DNA of 64,000 bases from NCBI GenBank assembly GCA_000381565.1, contig KB906724.1, forward strand, positions 3,431,020-3,495,019. Direction: 5' to 3'. A program made the translations under genes and the position numbers. The notes beneath the pieces were generated by a model. The model was not told where the DNA came from and made no database searches. It was given only the letters and a program-made list of their open reading frames with translations. Shown piece by piece: positions 48,801 through 56,110 of the stretch. Within the stretch, counting starts at the first letter, position 1. Each line of letters starts with the position of its first letter. Source of the stretch: Oxalobacteraceae bacterium AB_14 (GTDB lineage Bacteria; Pseudomonadota; Gammaproteobacteria; Burkholderiales; Burkholderiaceae_D).

Positions 48801-49775
48801 ATGCAGCAATACCAGGACCTGATCCAGACCGTCATCGAAACGGGCAGCTGGCAAGACAACCGCACCGGCATCCGCACGCTGAGCGTGCCGGGTGCGATGA
48901 TGCGCTTCGACCTGCTGAACGACGGCTTCCCCGCCGTGACGACAAAAAAACTGGCATTCAAATCCGTGGTCGGCGAACTGTGCGCCTTCCTGCGCGCCTC
49001 CAGCAGCGCGGCCGACTTCCGCGCGCTGGGCTGCAAGGTCTGGGACCAGAACGCCAACGAGAACAAGCAGTGGCTGGAAAATCCCTACCGCTTGGGCGAA
49101 GACGACCTGGGTCCGGTCTACGGCGTGCAGTGGCGCCAATGGCCGGGCTTCAAGCTGATCGCCGTCGACCAGCCGGCGCAGATCGCCGACGCGCAAAAGA
49201 ACGGCTTCCGCCTGATCTCGCAGATCGAGGACGCAGGCGTGAGCAAGGTCCTGCTGCACAAAGCCATCGACCAGTTGCGCGAATGCCTGGACACCATCGT
49301 CAACAATCCGGGCAGCCGCCGCATCCTGTTCCACGGCTGGAATCCGGCGGTGCTGGATGCTGTCGCGCTACCGGCCTGCCACCTGCTGTACCAGTTCATT
49401 CCGAATCCGGCCACGCGCGAGCTGTCGATGTGCCTCTACGTCCGCTCGAACGACCTGGGCCTGGGCACACCGTTCAACCTCGCTGAAGGCGCCGCGCTGA
49501 TGCACCTGGTCGGCCGCCTGACGGGCTACACGCCGCGCTGGTTCACCTACTTCATCGGCGATGCCCACATCTACGAGAACCACATGGACATGGTCAAGGA
49601 ACAGCTGACCCGCACGCCGTTCCCGGCGCCGCAGTTCCGCATCGCCGACCGCGTGCCGGACTTCGCCAAGACCGGCAAGTACGAGCCGGAGTGGCTGGAA
49701 AAGGTCGAGCCGTCGGACTTCTCGCTGGAAGGCTACCAGCACCACGCGCCGATCACGGCGCCGATGGCGGTATAA
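48801..49775 (+). CDS. thyA: Thymidylate synthase
   Basis: A 324-residue ThyA, longer than the 264-residue E. coli form owing to an insertion (about residues 90-150), as in the lactobacillus-type enzyme. The catalytic cysteine lies in [11 protein letters not shown] near residue 194, with folate- and dUMP-binding stretches such as [14 protein letters not shown] and HIYENHMD. It makes dTMP from dUMP using methylene-tetrahydrofolate. Ribosome site TTGGAG precedes ATG 48801; a GC hairpin sits at 48763-48779. Its end overlaps the convergent carbamoyltransferase by 23 bp. folA, often the next gene in beta-proteobacteria, lies 7.4 kb away. Confidence 0.97.
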
Positions 49776-51717
49776 AACCGGCGGGCCGCAGATGGATGAC
49801 CCGCTGCTCCCATAGCGCCAATAGTTCAGCCGCCAGTCCGGCGGCCTGCTCGCCGTCCTGCGCGACGCTCCGCCCCGCAGTGAGCACCTGGTACGCGGCG
49901 CTGGACATCGCTATCTGCCGATGCGCATCCAATAGCACGTAAAACTGCTCAAGCGTGCCGTCCGCCGTCTGCGCCCATCCAGTCGCCAGGCTCCCGCCGT
50001 CGCCCAGAACTGGCTGCAACGCCAGCACACGCTGCGGCGACAGTTCCGTTTTGTTCACCAGGTACGGACCTACCGCCAAGGCATCGAGCCCGGTGGTCAG
50101 GAAGCACGCGACCGCATCGTCCACCGAGTCGACAATGGGCTCACGATTATTGTTGAACGAAGTGTTGAGCAGCACCGGGACACCCGTCAAACCGCCGAAA
50201 GCCTCAAGCAGCTGCCAGAACAAGGCATTCTGCCCGCGCTTCACGACCTGCACGCGCGCCGTGCCGTCGACATGCGTCACCGCGCCCAGCACAGGCTGGA
50301 ACTCCAGTCGCACCGGCACCACCGCCGTCATGAAGGAGCAATCCATCGCTTCCGGCAGCTCGAAGTAGCGGTCCGCATCCTCGCTCCGGACGGCCGGAGC
50401 AAAGGGCCGAAACGCCTCGCGCTTCTTGACCATGGCGTTGATCCTGTCCTTGTTGGCGGCATCGCGCGGGTCGGCCAGAATGCTGCGATTACCCAGCGCC
50501 CTCGGCCCGAACTCGGACCGTCCCTGCACCCAGCCTAGCACCTGCCCCGCCGCCAGCAGCTGCGCCGCCGTTTGCGCGATATCGTCGCAACGCCGGAATG
50601 ACAGCAGGCCATCCCAGCGTCGCAACTGCGCCGCCAGCGCATGCTCTTCGGGCATCGGACGTCCGAGAAAGACATGCGACTGCGGCGCTATCGCATGCCC
50701 GCCTGCGCCTGCGTGCTGCAATTGCCCGAGACAGGCCGCCCCCAAGGCCAGGCCGCAATCGCCGGCCGCCGGCTGGACGAAGATGCGCTCGAACAGGCCG
50801 GAACGCGCCAGGCGTCCGTTGAGCGCGCAGTTCTGCATGACGCCACCCGCAGCGCACAGCTTGCGCACCCCGGTGGCGCCGCTGTGATAGCGCAGCACAT
50901 GGAATGCGATGTCCTCCAGCGCCACCTGGGCTGCCGCCGCCAGGTCGCAATCCCGCGCGCTGAAACCCTCGTCCGGACGGCGCGGCGGCCCCAGCTCCGC
51001 CAGATTGCGCTGCAGCACGCTCCGGTTCAACCGGTAGCGCCCCTCCGCCTCCAGCCGATAAGCGCTGGCATAGGCCTGCCGATAAGTGGACGGATTGCCG
51101 TAGGGGGCCAGTCCCATCATCTTGAATTCATCGTGCGCGCCGAAGCCCAGCAGCGGTAGCGCGGTTTGATACAGGGCACCGAGCGAATCGGGCACCGCGA
51201 TCTGCTCCAATATCTCCAGGCACTTGCCGCGCGCCTCGATCACGTAGCCGGAGACGCCATCGCCAAAACCATCGGCGGTGAAGACCAGCGCTTCGTCGTA
51301 GCCGGAGAGTGCGTATGCGCTGAGGGCATGGCACAGATGATGATCAAACAGCTTGACCCGCGTGCGCGGCGGCGCCGCCAAGCCCAGCGCCGCCTGCAAG
51401 ACCATCGACCAGGCGTCGCCGGTGATAGTCGGATCGCGATGCTTGCCGCTCCCTCCCTGCTCGCCGAATGCGAACAAGTCGACATCCCCGGCGCCGCAGC
51501 GGGCCGCCTCCAGGCAGGCGCGCATGGCCAGCAACGGCAGCTTGCCGGTATGCTTGCGGCGCGTCAGCCGCTCTTCCTCGATGGCTGCGACGACCTCGCC
51601 GTCGATCATCAGCACGGCGGCGGAATCGTGATACCAGCCGCATTCCCAGGCGCCGCGCAGGTCGCCGGAGAACGCTCGCGGCAGGTGGGGCTGGCCCTGC
51701 AAACCCATGACGATCAT
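49753..51717 (-). CDS. Carbamoyltransferase, NodU/TobZ/CmcH family
   Basis: A 654-residue protein. The N-terminal Kae1-like domain binds carbamoyl-adenylate: [17 protein letters not shown] near residue 26, then [20 protein letters not shown] (quoted in part) near 125, and TADGFGDG. The C-terminal YrdC-like region has [17 protein letters not shown] near 420 and VLLNTSFNN near 535. This family moves a carbamoyl group from carbamoyl phosphate to hydroxyls in antibiotics and Nod factors. ATG 51717 has GGGAGG 9 bp upstream. It is the last gene of the five-gene operon, 35 bp after the JmjC-like gene. Confidence 0.93.
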
Positions 51718-51752
51718 CGCGCATCCTCCCTTGCCCGCTGCCGTGGCGCCGC

Positions 51753-52970
51753 TCAGGTCTGGTCCGGGCGCAGCTGGAGTGCCCCGGCTCGCAGGCAGAA
51801 ATCGATCATCCGGCCCACCGCACCGTTGTCCGCCCGGCCAGTGAGCTCACCGCCGGCGTTCAATACGGCGATCGCGTCCCACACCGCTGGCTCGTCCGCC
51901 ACCGTGGTGGAATACCCGCCCGCCGCCACCCGCATGGCGCCTCCGGCTTCGGGTGCCGCCAGAATGTTGTACATGCTCTTGAGCGTCACCACGCCGGCCG
52001 CACCACCATGCTCCAACAACGGTGGCGGACGCAGATAACCGCAGGCGCTGAAGTGCTCCAGCCAGCCGCGCGCCACGGCGGCGCGCAGGCGCGGGTCGAC
52101 CGAGAGCCTGGCCAGCTTGTCGACCAGCGCATCGACCTCGCGCAGGTCCCTCGCCTCCTCGACCAATGCCGCGCGCGGGACTGCCCGGCATCGGCCCGGC
52201 GATTCCATCAGCAGCTGCGCCAGCTCCTCCAGCGCCAGACTGGTCATGCCGTCGCCCAGCCAATAGCCGAAGCCCCAAGTCACCGAGAACTCGCCGTCCG
52301 ATTCGGCCACATGCCAATCGCTTGAAGGCCAGTACAGCACCTGTCCGGGCCGCGCGCTCAACGCCGTAGATTGCTCCAGATACCGTTCATAGCGCAGCGC
52401 GCCGCGCAGTTGCGGCGTGGCCTGGGCAAAGCGGTCCGGCCAGAAGCGCATGGTCTTGGCGCCCGCCACAGGGAAATGAAAGCCGCTGGTGCGGTCCACG
52501 TGGACGCCGAACGGGGTCGTCTTGTAAGTGCCGAGGAATACCTGCGTATCCATGCGCGCGTGGCTGATACCCACCACCGCCGCCAGGTCCTGCACCGCGC
52601 TGAGGATGCGCTCCCACAGTGCGCGGTCGAACTGGTGCCAGTCCGCCACTACCAACGCATAATTCGGCAAGCCTTCCAAGTCCATCAGCCGCGCATTGTA
52701 AGCGGCAAAGGAGCCGTCGCGTCGCGCAGGCAACAGGCGCAGGTGGCCGCCGCCCAACAGGTCCACCTCCTGGTCGTCGGAATAGAAACGTACCTTTTGC
52801 CTGCCGCCGCGACAAAAATCCTCGCAGCAGGAAACCACCGCGCCGAACAACTCGTCCACGGAAACACGCGGCAGCGCCTTTGCCTGTTCCTCCCCAAGCA
52901 GGACGGCCTGGCGCTCCCAATAAAGTTCGGCGAAGTCCAACCAAAAATCCTGTATGTCGCGCTGGCCCAT
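51753..52970 (-). CDS. JmjC/cupin-type Fe(II)/2-oxoglutarate oxygenase
   Basis: A 405-residue protein; ATG 52970 is preferred to a TTG four codons upstream. The double-stranded beta-helix shows iron ligands H157-x-D159 (TTPFGVHVDRTSG), K172 for 2-oxoglutarate (AGAKTMRFW), and the distal H220 (PSSDWHVAESDG) after RPGQVLYWP. This matches ribosomal-oxygenase-like (RoxA/cupin_4) enzymes that hydroxylate protein side chains. The remaining about 170 residues are a helical region that may contain a diverged copy of the C-terminal module seen in the two preceding operon genes. Inferred role: oxidative modification of the operon's Cys-repeat protein. Confidence 0.82.
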   Translation of the reverse strand: MGQRDIQDFWLDFAELYWERQAVLLGEEQAKALPRVSVDELFGAVVSCCEDFCRGGRQKVRFYSDDQEVDLLGGGHLRLLPARRDGSFAAYNARLMDLEGLPNYALVVADWHQFDRALWERILSAVQDLAAVVGISHARMDTQVFLGTYKTTPFGVHVDRTSGFHFPVAGAKTMRFWPDRFAQATPQLRGALRYERYLEQSTALSARPGQVLYWPSSDWHVAESDGEFSVTWGFGYWLGDGMTSLALEELAQLLMESPGRCRAVPRAALVEEARDLREVDALVDKLARLSVDPRLRAAVARGWLEHFSACGYLRPPPLLEHGGAAGVVTLKSMYNILAAPEAGGAMRVAAGGYSTTVADEPAVWDAIAVLNAGGELTGRADNGAVGRMIDFCLRAGALQLRPDQT

Positions 52971-52990
52971 GGCCGCCCCCAAGGTTTGCG

Positions 52991-53659
52991 CTACGATCCC
53001 ACGCGTAGCAGCTTGTACTCCACCAGCGCGCCGACCAGCGCGACCTTTTCCTCGTCATCCAGGTCGCCCGGCAGTTCGCGTACATAAAATGCCGGCGTGG
53101 CGCAGATGAAACGCATGGCGTCCCGCGCCAGGCGGTTGACCGACAACAGCACCTCGCCATCGGCGTTGCACAGATGGCTCAAACCATCCGCATCGGCCTG
53201 AACGACGCTGCCGACATGATCGTTGAGGATGCGGCGGTGCGGCTTGACGTGGGTTTCGTCGTACCACATCCCTGGCAGCGGCTCGCCAAACAGCTCGGCA
53301 TAGCGCTGTTCGAATTCCGCGAACGTGGCGGTGCGCCGCGGCGGTCCGGCATCCCCGCCCACCGGTTCCGGCGCGTTGGAAGGACTGTGCTGGATATACA
53401 CGCCAAAGTAGCGCAGGCTGAATTCGATGTACTCGGCCGTGAACAGCACAAACTGGTGCCAGACTTCGTCAATGCGCAGCGAATGCATGTCCCACAGCAC
53501 GGTGTCGTCGGCGCGCACCATGACGATGAAGCGTTTGACCTCGCGGAACAACGCCTGGCCTTCCTCGGCCGAATCGACGATGTGCTCCTTGAGCAGCTTG
53601 TCGATCAGGTATGGCGCCTCGAAGGACAGCGATTCGAATGGGGAACGGGAAGATGTCAT
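52991..53659 (-). CDS. GRDP-like (DUF1399-type) protein with shared C-terminal module
   Basis: A 222-residue protein. Residues about 15-95 resemble the glycine-rich-domain-protein family (PF07173-like): LRIDEVWHQFVLFTAEY (63-76 region), then FGVYIQHSP, with conserved Asp, Trp and His. The pattern D-x2-W-H is the family signature, but no enzymatic function is established. Residues about 140-222 contain a module ending RELPGDLDDEEKVALVGALV, similar to the end of the upstream dioxygenase-like protein. It overlaps that gene's stop by 4 bp (ATGA), so the two are translated in a coupled way. Confidence 0.7.
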   Translation of the reverse strand: MTSSRSPFESLSFEAPYLIDKLLKEHIVDSAEEGQALFREVKRFIVMVRADDTVLWDMHSLRIDEVWHQFVLFTAEYIEFSLRYFGVYIQHSPSNAPEPVGGDAGPPRRTATFAEFEQRYAELFGEPLPGMWYDETHVKPHRRILNDHVGSVVQADADGLSHLCNADGEVLLSVNRLARDAMRFICATPAFYVRELPGDLDDEEKVALVGALVEYKLLRVGS

Positions 53660-54684
53660 GTCGTCCTCACTCGCTCGAACAATCCGCTTTCCTCCAGCGC
53701 CATGCCCAACGCAAAGCGCTCCTCGTCGTCCAGCGCCCCCGGCAACGCGGCGACGTCGAGCAGATCGTGGCCGGCGGCATAGCTCAGCGCAGAGCGCGCG
53801 ATGTCACCGGTCTCGATCTCGCATACCAGGCCCCCGGGGGTCTCGACCGCCAACGCGCTGCCGCCGGGTGTCGATTGCTGGCGCAGCACCAGGCCGTCGG
53901 CCACGCGCCGCAGCAAATACGTCGCCGACGAACCATCCGCTGCTGCGCCGCCCAGGTCCTCGACATAGGCCCGCGTGGCCGTGCTCCCCAGGTCAAAGCA
54001 TGCCGCCAGTTGCGCCAACGCCAGCGGCGAAGCGCTGGCGGCTGCAATCTGCGCCAGCTGCCGCAGCCAGCGCTGCTTCTGGCGCGCAGCCATCACGCTG
54101 GCGTAGGCGTGAACCGGCTGTCCGTTGGAAGGGGCCGGGGCGCGCAGCTCACGCGGCGCATCCTCATGATCGGGCAGCGGCATCCCGTCGCGTGGACTGA
54201 TGACATGGATGGACAACGACCAGTCCCGCGTGGGATTGCGTGGCGCGTGGATGCCCGGTTCGTAGATGAATCCCACCTTGCCGGCCGGCGCCGCAAACAG
54301 GTTCTTGTCGACCAGCGCACCGCTACGATACGACGCGGCGCGGTCGTAGGTGCGCACTTCGAGCTCGTTGCGACAAACGCCTGTGATGGTCCATGCCGTG
54401 TGTTCATGCGCGCCCGGTCCGCCATATGGCGGCCAGAAACCGAACGCCATGCGGATGCCGCTGCGCGCCAGCGTCAGGAACGGCACCAGGCCGTTGCGGG
54501 GCGCCCCCGACGCGATCAGCTTCAGTTCCAGCGCCATGCAGTCGAGCAGGAACTCGTCATCGGCCACCGCGCGCTCCATCGCCGTCCGGGCGGCCAGTAC
54601 GGTCTCCCGCGCGGGCAGATCTGGCTCGTCCCGATCGGGGAAGTCCAGCCTGGCGAAGGTGTCGACGACGTCGTCCAGTCTCAT
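53656..54684 (-). CDS. Cysteine-dioxygenase-like thiol dioxygenase with C-terminal module
   Basis: A 342-residue protein. Residues about 70-165 have the CDO cupin pattern: PGAHEHTAWTITGV (H93 and H95), YEPGIHAPRN (H146, the third iron ligand, with the family's H-x3-N spacing), and WSLSIHVISP (H160, equivalent to the second-sphere His of CDO). The CDO tyrosine after that His is replaced (HVI rather than HLY). Residues about 200-335 are extra; the last 90 end in ALPGALDDEERFALGMAL, close to the next gene's end. It follows the Cys-repeat gene by 9 bp. Inferred: oxygenation of cysteine thiols in that protein. Confidence 0.8.
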   Translation of the reverse strand: MRLDDVVDTFARLDFPDRDEPDLPARETVLAARTAMERAVADDEFLLDCMALELKLIASGAPRNGLVPFLTLARSGIRMAFGFWPPYGGPGAHEHTAWTITGVCRNELEVRTYDRAASYRSGALVDKNLFAAPAGKVGFIYEPGIHAPRNPTRDWSLSIHVISPRDGMPLPDHEDAPRELRAPAPSNGQPVHAYASVMAARQKQRWLRQLAQIAAASASPLALAQLAACFDLGSTATRAYVEDLGGAAADGSSATYLLRRVADGLVLRQQSTPGGSALAVETPGGLVCEIETGDIARSALSYAAGHDLLDVAALPGALDDEERFALGMALEESGLFERVRTT

Positions 54685-54693
54685 CGCGCCGGC

Positions 54694-55188
54694 CTAGCGT
54701 TCACGCAGTTGCGGGAAGGCGAAGCCTCCCGGCAGCTCGAACCGGCTGCCGCGCGATTGGCATACCTGGCAGCGCGACTGGCACACCTGGCAGCGCGATT
54801 GGCAAACGTCGGAGCGCAGGCCGCCGCGCACCAGGATGCGCAGCCGTCCACGACTCAATTCCAGCGCTTCCTCCGCCCTGGGTTTGATCGCACTGGTCTC
54901 GATCTTGCTGACCACCACCTGCGCATCTTTTTTCAGCCAGACGATGGTGCCGCCCAGCGGCAGCACGGAATCCGGCGCTTCGGCGAAATACAGAATGTCG
55001 CTGCGGGCGATATCGACCGCGTCGCTCAGGTCAGCCAGGTCGGCGTACATGCGCACATAGCCATCGCGCGTCGACGGTCCCACGTAGCCCTTGACGCTGG
55101 CGACGTTGGTGGCGTTGTGCTCCTTCAGGTAGCTCAACAAGGGATGTTCCGGAATTTTACTGCCCGCTTCTAACTTGAAATCGGCCAT
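54694..55188 (-). CDS. Cys-heptad-repeat protein, candidate precursor of a modified peptide
   Basis: A 164-residue protein starting MADFKLEAGS; ATG 55188 has GAGGAG 9 bp upstream (a longer frame to 55260 lacks one). Residues 1-120 look like a folded leader domain (KGYVGPSTRDGYVRMYADL, then LPLGGTIVWLKKDAQVV) that I do not recognise. Residues 126-146 are three heptads, SDVCQSR, CQVCQSR, CQVCQSR, giving C129, C133, C136, C140 and C143, followed by GSRFELPGGFAFPQLRER. It is the first gene of the operon. The leader-plus-repeat layout and the modifying-enzyme neighbours suggest a RiPP-like precursor; a metal-binding protein is the alternative. Confidence 0.65.
   Translation of the reverse strand: MADFKLEAGSKIPEHPLLSYLKEHNATNVASVKGYVGPSTRDGYVRMYADLADLSDAVDIARSDILYFAEAPDSVLPLGGTIVWLKKDAQVVVSKIETSAIKPRAEEALELSRGRLRILVRGGLRSDVCQSRCQVCQSRCQVCQSRGSRFELPGGFAFPQLRER
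54751..54813 (-). repeat. Three tandem 21-bp repeats encoding the Cys heptads
   Basis: Units of exactly 21 bp each encode one (C/S)(Q/D)VCQSR heptad on the minus strand; the second and third encode identical heptads and differ only at synonymous bases. Copy number may change by slippage. Confidence 0.85.
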
Positions 55189-55414: not shown

Positions 55415-56110
55415 ATGACACGCCTGGATTTCATACCAGGCACCTTGTGCGACGAAAGGATGTGGTCTCGCTTGACGCCGCAACTGGGCAGCGGTTTCGC
55501 ATTCAATCACGTCCCGCTACACAAGGCGCACACGCGCTTGCAGATGCAGGAGCTGATCGCGGCGCACAGCGCGCCGTCGGCGCACCTGGTGGCGTTCTCG
55601 CTGGGCGCCTATCTCGCCATCGAGTACGCGCTGCTGCATCCCGAGCGCGTGCAATCGCTGGTGCTGATCGCGAATTCGGCGCGCGGCCTGAGCGAAACCG
55701 AGCTACAGACCCGCCGCCGCATCATCCCCATGTTGAAGAACAATGCCTACACCGGCATGACGCGCATGCGCCTGCGCGAACTGCTGCACGAGGCGCACCT
55801 CGGCGACCAGGGCATCATCGACATCATCCAGCAGATGGCGCTGGAGCTGGGCAAGGACGTGCTGCTGGCGCAGTTCACCGCGTCGATGGAACGCCCCGAC
55901 CTGATGGAGCGGCTGCCTGAAATCACCTGCCCCGTGCTGATCGTCGGCGCCACCGGCGACCAGCTGGTCGATCCGGCCGATCTGCGCGAAATGCAGCGCC
56001 ACCTGCCCGACGCCCGCCTGCATCTGCACGACGGCACCGGCCACATGATCCCGCTGGAGGCCCCGCAGACGCTGGCCGCCGACATACTGGCCTTCCATCA
56101 CAGCGCATGA
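55415..56110 (+). CDS. Alpha/beta hydrolase
   Basis: A 231-residue alpha/beta-hydrolase. The nucleophile elbow is VAFSLGAYLA (Ser about 63), the acid is probably in GATGDQLVDP near 190, and the His in DGTGHMIPLE near 213. There is no signal peptide. It is divergent from the Cys-repeat operon across 226 bp. Its stop overlaps the start of the YidD-like gene (ATGA). A role as a peptidase for the neighbouring operon is possible but unsupported; the sequence looks like an ester hydrolase of the BioH/MhpC kind. Confidence 0.88.
   Translation: MTRLDFIPGTLCDERMWSRLTPQLGSGFAFNHVPLHKAHTRLQMQELIAAHSAPSAHLVAFSLGAYLAIEYALLHPERVQSLVLIANSARGLSETELQTRRRIIPMLKNNAYTGMTRMRLRELLHEAHLGDQGIIDIIQQMALELGKDVLLAQFTASMERPDLMERLPEITCPVLIVGATGDQLVDPADLREMQRHLPDARLHLHDGTGHMIPLEAPQTLAADILAFHHSA

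Follow-up and report, generated by a model that had tools for sequence, protein, structure and literature searches.

The window analysed here, a stretch of 64,000 nucleotides from Oxalobacteraceae bacterium AB_14 (contig KB906724.1, positions 3,431,020 to 3,495,019), contains five minus-strand open reading frames (ORFs) that encode, in operon order, a 164-residue precursor with a Cys-rich core (54694–55188), a CDO-like protein of 342 residues (53656–54684), a GRDP-like protein of 222 residues (52991–53659), a JmjC-type oxygenase of 405 residues (51753–52970) and a 654-residue carbamoyltransferase of the GdmN/NovN type (49753–51717). An original prediction, made from the letters of the stretch, had described five tightly spaced genes, and its coordinates and spacings (9 bp, a 4-bp overlap, 20 bp and 35 bp) match the ORF list. 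The operon is considered below as a probable pathway for a ribosomally synthesized and post-translationally modified peptide (RiPP), with the peptide and the CDO-like and GRDP-like proteins as its core.

Gene set and distribution

The genes for the peptide, the CDO-like protein and the GRDP-like protein occur in this order in all six distinct loci (seven records), which span two phyla: the window, Rugamonas sp. A1-17 (L015), a pair of Streptomyces plasmids (L010 and L079, with identical precursors and counted as one locus), S. lateritius (L016), a Mycobacteriaceae metagenome-assembled genome (MAG; L017) and the locus L068. The co-occurrence that was to be looked for is thus found for these three families, and of the five-gene set originally proposed this part stands. 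The other part does not: profiles of the JmjC oxygenase and the carbamoyltransferase matched only the window and Rugamonas sp. A1-17, two of the six loci, among 989 ORFs of at least 60 residues in seven stretches that extend at most about 10 kb to each side (less in L079 and L017). The five genes are therefore not one obligatory set, and the oxygenase and the carbamoyltransferase are accessory, outside the core.

Examples of the system are few and dispersed across Pseudomonadota and Actinomycetota. Within the genus, the CDO profile matched two of 74 genomes: the window's own and G986, which shares a 60-mer with Rugamonas sp. A1-17 and is taken to be that strain's genome. Among 398 genomes sampled from the phylum, it matched that of the window at full length and one other at the C-terminal domain only. 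Five of 345 genomes in the class of S. lateritius matched, S. lateritius and G1053 at full length and three through the cupin part only; an order sample of 147 around G1053 again returned these two loci at full length, with three matches confined to the cupin part. The MAG alone matched in a family sample of 101 around it, and a plasmid collection yielded the trio on the two Streptomyces plasmids. A scan of genome contigs found Rugamonas sp. A1-17, S. lateritius and the MAG; it used two peptide patterns only and would necessarily miss distant members. The JmjC protein (P0004) had matches in six of 294 genomes of the family, at full length only in the window's own. A Jeotgalibacillus plasmid matched the GRDP-like protein with 28% identity across 67% of it, and three queries found no relative among viral contigs. 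Since the system is both rare and scattered over the two phyla, horizontal transfer is suggested.

When the window is compared with Rugamonas sp. A1-17, each of the five genes shows purifying selection, most strongly the peptide gene (dN/dS of 0.055, 0.145, 0.117, 0.138 and 0.172 in operon order, by a simple Nei–Gojobori count on two strains). The Cys tail (residues 125–147) shows no non-synonymous and six synonymous changes. With a core almost unchanged between the two related strains, the product would more probably serve a conserved function, metal handling or signalling for example, than act as an arms-race toxin.

The precursor peptide

The precursor, which has homologues in L015 and L010, comprises a folded and separable N-terminal domain (residues 1–104; 54877–55188), a putative recognition motif around SRGRLRILVR (residues 110–121; 54826–54861), a Cys core with CxSxC repeats (residues 126–147; 54748–54813) and a C-terminal extension. 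Its C-terminal tail, SDVCQSRCQVCQSRCQVCQSRGS, holds five cysteines (C129, C133, C136, C140 and C143) in two full heptads and one partial one, so that the three heptads first described in the 164-residue protein are correct but for the third. The peptide sequences are ELSRGRLRILVRGGLRSDVCQSRCQVCQSRCQVCQSRG in the window, VESRHGRLRIMARDSTMAADCRSLCFVDPPCQSTCRVCQSRGCM on the Streptomyces plasmid, RESRRGRLRMHVPERDVCTSNCAPCYSPPCDVCTSSCWIPLR in L068 and SLTVGRLNINLADHQPGQESMSSSCKCRSDLRSICRTTH in the MAG. An alignment of five peptides gives a short common motif ahead of the core, ESRxGRLR[IM] (GRLNI in the MAG), and the Cys cores that follow it differ between lineages; a conserved part that stays while the Cys repeats vary, the check that the original prediction had proposed for the leader, is present in this short motif.

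The pattern GRLx[IM] occurs in nine of 2078 ORFs (at least 30 residues, ten stretches). Six of the 2078 combine it with at least three Cys residues in the last 40, and all six adjoin CDO/GRDP genes; they include near-copies (window and L015; L010 and L016). GRLxI alone is found in eight of 1780 ORFs in eight stretches, five of them with the same Cys content. CxSxC is present twice in three of the four lineages, more often than in shuffled sequences: among 100000 shuffles, the fractions that reach this count are 0.009, 0.003 and 0.006. In two loci the peptide is as short as 43 and 50 residues, and in S. lateritius (L016 9500–9985) the precursor is visible as its C-terminal part only, beside the CDO/GRDP pair. 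A match of the Streptomyces precursor on a Gordonia plasmid (E = 0.02) lies antisense inside a helicase-related gene and was set aside as chance.

All six loci thus show a hallmark of RiPP pathways: an encoded peptide with a conserved part and a variable core, and putative modifying enzymes adjacent to it. We infer from the alignment that the conserved motif is the recognition part, and the ESRxGRLRI strand appears a better candidate for a leader or recognition element than the folded N-terminus. The latter had been taken as a leader, but it is not a needed one. It is fused to the peptide in three loci; in L068 it forms its own gene, which stops 1 bp before the start of a separate 43-residue peptide gene, a split that may have arisen from a frameshift in a once-fused gene. 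A profile built from the window and Rugamonas domains and run against 1673 ORFs of at least 40 residues matched the L068 protein (E = 1e-21), the Streptomyces plasmid (E = 2.1e-13) and a protein of G675 (E = 2.3e-7), and no ORF of L016 or L017 up to E = 10. Being a separate gene in L068 and not found in L016 and L017, the domain is dispensable for the trio; it recurs with peptide-modification genes. In a phylum sample, three of 349 genomes matched; the third match, in G838 (E = 0.0086), was dropped as chance, its frame looking by eye like shikimate kinase. The G675 homologue lies near LanC-like, HopA1 and APH-family genes (L056 4184–9767), a lanthipeptide-like neighbourhood. Also encoded there is a 459-residue protein whose Cys repeats are of the GCPSTSTCTPTSA type, interspersed with runs of N.

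The encoded proteins

The CDO fold with H93, H95, H146 and H160 that had been proposed for the second protein is borne out by the model, and the four histidines are invariant in all six aligned CDO-like proteins, the window's own included. Pfam gave no family for any of five CDO-like members up to E = 1 (PF05995, CDO_I, unmatched) and none for P0020 up to E = 0.01. A linked small protein, P0023, matches PF05995 (E = 5.6e-8), and in an alignment with it H93, H95, H146, S158 and H160, all within the cupin part (54175–54492), are invariant. A Foldseek search with the whole model (mean pLDDT 67.6, built from four sequences) placed ROXY JmjC oxygenases at ranks 1–29 (best E = 1.0e-6), followed by CDO and MDO over 171–183 alignment columns with target TM scores of 0.47–0.59. 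A second look at these matches, the VIA run, gave 4qm9 as best (Z = 11.1, r.m.s.d. of 3.3, 148 aligned) and thiol dioxygenases of the CDO, MDO, PCO, ADO and mercaptosuccinate kinds at ranks 1–45, the first other cupin having Z = 8.5. By the model, then, the protein has a CDO-type cupin fold. It resembles the CDO/MDO family (PF05995) in this fold and in the positions of H93, H95, H146, S158 and H160, but differs in having no Pfam match, in its extra C-terminal domain, in the loss of the Tyr of the catalytic triad to Ile or Thr and in the Cys peptide encoded alongside. The ROXY JmjC oxygenases (NO66, MINA53 and YcfD) share with the locus their top Foldseek ranks and the HxD/K/H pattern of the window's JmjC protein; however, the TM scores are only 0.16–0.22, the domains do not superpose together and the CDO-like protein has a three-His site.

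In the GRDP-like protein, the DEVWH motif noted at the outset lies at residues 64–68 (53456–53470), and the assignment is linked to PF07173 by homology. None of five GRDP-like members matches PF07173 directly up to E = 1. A GRDP-like profile matched 23 of 274 class genomes (own genome included), and when four of its matches were scanned against PF07173, one (L037, profile E = 4.6e-8) passed the cut-off (25.4 versus 22.7 bits), two fell below it (17.5 and 15.9) and one had no match. D64, W67, H68, T74, Y77, G86, H91 and P93 are common to all seven aligned proteins; that D64, H68 and H91 form a metal site is a guess. The N-terminal part of the model had no match in the VIA rows, which barely probe that part, and we know of no activity or chemistry for the GRDP-like family in bacteria or plants. 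Bacterial GRDP-like proteins in L019, L022 and L025 end in Cys/Gly-rich tails (CGGTGCGGCGGGCGGG in L019, for example), which recall the Gly-rich tails carried by plant GRDPs. On the Escherichia coli plasmid pHUSEC41-3 (L011 376–3592), the only one inspected of 25 Escherichia plasmid records that match GRDP, a GRDP-like protein with its own Cys/Gly tail (VCGCSGKGCGAGCSCNSR) adjoins an ABC transporter and a JmjC_2 protein (Pfam E = 3.3e-21); this looks like a small separate peptide cluster with the GRDP as substrate or carrier.

The C-terminal domains of the CDO-like (53671–53916) and GRDP-like (53003–53236) proteins are, by sequence comparison, homologous: hhalign aligns them over 53 columns with a probability of 97% (E = 8.7e-12), and each tail profile matches the other protein in all seven records (E from 7.3e-9 to 2.7e-7 for the CDO profile and from 1.1e-8 to 1.6e-4 for the GRDP profile). 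The modelled GRDP domain has three strands and then two helices; that of the CDO-like protein begins with four strands, which a helix, a short strand, another helix and a last strand follow, predicted elements that are like those of a RiPP recognition element (RRE) or winged helix. VIA rows for the GRDP model include 8t19_A (Z = 2.1), titled RRE, and 6gos_1 (Z = 2.4) at 12–89 of microcin B17 synthetase, a region that we take to be its RRE. Given the RRE order of three strands and three helices (PMC12710340), a weak RRE likeness of the two domains may be read from the models. The CDO C-terminal profile has a further match in the C-terminal end of a JmjC_2 oxygenase that is encoded next to a repeat peptide (E = 1.3e-4, one genome of 398). 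This oxygenase (L057 9243–10901, equal to L049) is divergent from a protein with TDADNGNxTDRAGxGRG repeats and, by eye, a Tat-like start. That one kind of C-terminal domain might be common to all four enzymes was considered and dropped, as hhalign matches the CDO and GRDP tails only; the JmjC and carbamoyltransferase tails reach at most 0.57% against any other tail (a weak test with two near-identical sequences each), and the carbamoyltransferase aligns with GdmN almost to its end.

Both accessory enzymes are of the types originally named. The JmjC protein scores just below the cut-off of Pfam JmjC_2 (PF08007; E = 2.1e-4, 21.3 bits against 22), and its predicted ligands, H157-x-D159, K172 and the distal H220, are invariant in four of four aligned proteins, two of which pass the cut-off. 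The carbamoyltransferase, said to be of the NodU/TobZ type, matches both the N and C domains of Carbam_trans strongly in Pfam, with full-length similarity; phmmer against the PDB gave GdmN (E = 1.2e-135) and decarbamoylnovobiocin carbamoyltransferase (E = 3.2e-134). Tandem or double-length JmjC-like open frames of about 440 and 830 residues, with a distant likeness to the window's JmjC protein, were seen in three genomes of the family (L002, L003, L004, L007, L008 and L009).

On one side of the operon a convergent gene (48801–49775), by eye a thymidylate synthase, shares 23 bp with the end of the carbamoyltransferase gene; on the other side lies a divergent gene (55415–56110), by eye an α/β hydrolase. 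None of the five operon proteins matches a known anti-phage defence system in PADLOC, and a reading as defence was dropped for that reason.

Proposed function and alternatives

A RiPP-type peptide-modification pathway is the best reading of the operon and a likely one. The original RiPP idea is supported by the conservation of peptide, CDO-like and GRDP-like proteins and by the motif with its varying core, and the four enzyme assignments stand with differing strength; the five-enzyme scheme and the folded leader are borne out only in part. The ribosome would make a peptide that ends in a short strand-like motif, ESRxGRLRI, and, after it, a Cys-rich core. This motif would be bound by the homologous C-terminal domains of the CDO-like and GRDP-like proteins, and a CDO-fold site, presumably using iron, would oxidize one or more core cysteines, the choice of residues being conjectural; such oxidation is likely. 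The GRDP-like protein would serve either as a second enzyme or as an obligate partner. Where they are present, in the window and Rugamonas, the JmjC oxygenase may hydroxylate a core side chain and the GdmN/NovN-type enzyme may carbamoylate a hydroxyl, either that made by the JmjC protein or a Ser of CxSxC; the order of steps and the role of the product are presumed. More tentatively, though still plausibly, the loci represent a new RiPP class in which a thiol-dioxygenase-fold enzyme and a GRDP-like protein are fused to the same recognition domain and the products carry S-oxidized or otherwise transformed Cys in CxSxC cores, with optional hydroxylation and O-carbamoylation, bacterial GRDP-like proteins then being a new peptide-modifying group.

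Several observations weigh against a RiPP pathway. The six loci amount to about four lineages (the window with Rugamonas, the Streptomyces loci L010 and L016, the MAG and L068). The GRLx[IM] motif was picked after the peptides had been seen, as was the CxSxC pattern, and the peptide of the MAG, whose start is uncertain, contains only three Cys residues and lacks CxSxC. CDO has a Ser-His-Tyr triad (PMC10966181); the CDO-like proteins keep the three His, the Ser and the His, and with Ile or Thr at the Tyr position plain sulfinate formation is not assured. Both tail models are of low confidence (mean pLDDT of 55.8 for GRDP and 67.6 for CDO) and have two helices where an RRE has three. With the GRDP model, Foldseek found no structure at E below 0.001 and the five VIA rows with Z of at least 2 range from 2.1 to 2.4, which is weak fold support for an RRE; Pfam found nothing in either domain up to E = 10. 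Furthermore, no peptidase or transporter is visible in the operon when the ORF list is read by eye. The JmjC and carbamoyltransferase profiles had no match up to E = 1 in the stretches of L010, L079, L016, L017 and L068.

This last result would also be expected if the oxygenase and the carbamoyltransferase formed a separate downstream pathway and the system were confined to peptide, CDO and GRDP, which we regard as rather unlikely. The JmjC profile, the one profile run on whole records or genomes, likewise matched none of three (no positive control), and among solved chains the carbamoyltransferase is nearest to small-molecule enzymes; but in both the window and Rugamonas sp. A1-17 the genes are closely spaced and identically ordered, and RREs are fused to proteins of both families, JmjC PF08007 and carbamoyltransferase PF02543, according to section 6 of PMC12710340. 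The missing transporter and peptidase would suit an intracellular Cys-rich, metal- or redox-responsive protein without exported product, whose CDO-fold partner acts as an oxygen or thiol sensor in the manner of plant cysteine oxidases, tail oxidation controlling stability or metal release. The tail unchanged between two related strains and the presence of PCO and ADO among the fold matches also speak for such a sensor, which we nevertheless consider unlikely. PCO oxidizes N-terminal Cys. So does ADO (PMC13194613), whereas the cysteines here are C-terminal; and the homologous tails on two proteins, a core that changes between phyla and an N-terminal-domain homologue near RiPP-type enzymes all fit a RiPP better. 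It is improbable that the Cys peptide is a regulator or chaperone of the CDO-like and GRDP-like proteins and that their substrate is a different one: the N-terminal domain can indeed be a stand-alone gene, and the GRDP-like chemistry is not known to us, but the motif-plus-Cys peptide, down to 43 and 50 residues, is the sole further element common to the six loci.

We know of no Cys core in crocagin. Its cluster resembles the window operon in having a carbamoyltransferase, CgnI, in a RiPP pathway, and differs in its product, a pyrroloindoline alkaloid (PMC10070186). The std cluster, as described in a preprint (PMC13174530), brings a NodU-like carbamoyltransferase, StdF, and an iron oxygenase to a ribosomal peptide; StdF, however, is a peptidase fusion that acts on lysine, the cluster has YcaO and an MNIO, the latter with an RRE partner, and the portions of the text available name no CDO or GRDP. 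In the biphenomycin cluster the JmjC protein BipG hydroxylates a residue of a ribosomal precursor, but this residue is ornithine and the companions are radical SAM and MNIO enzymes (PMC12707348). Bufferins share the short operon, the Cys-containing precursor, the iron enzyme and the RRE-type partner, but rely on an MNIO enzyme and a Sec signal peptide, neither of which is recognized in the window operon (PMC12452194). The accessory enzyme chemistry therefore has RiPP precedent in StdF, CgnI and BipG, as far as the available parts of these sources show; among the matches listed in the open-licence literature, judged by titles and the starts of abstracts, no CDO-fold or GRDP-type RiPP enzyme was found.

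Amino-acid metabolism and oxygen sensing are the known settings of thiol dioxygenases, and one tailored to a gene-encoded peptide would add a reaction to RiPP chemistry. The minimal form of the system, a peptide of 43–50 residues and two proteins, is small enough for rebuilding in vitro. If the reading is correct, the pathway would give the GRDP-like family a defined substrate to test.

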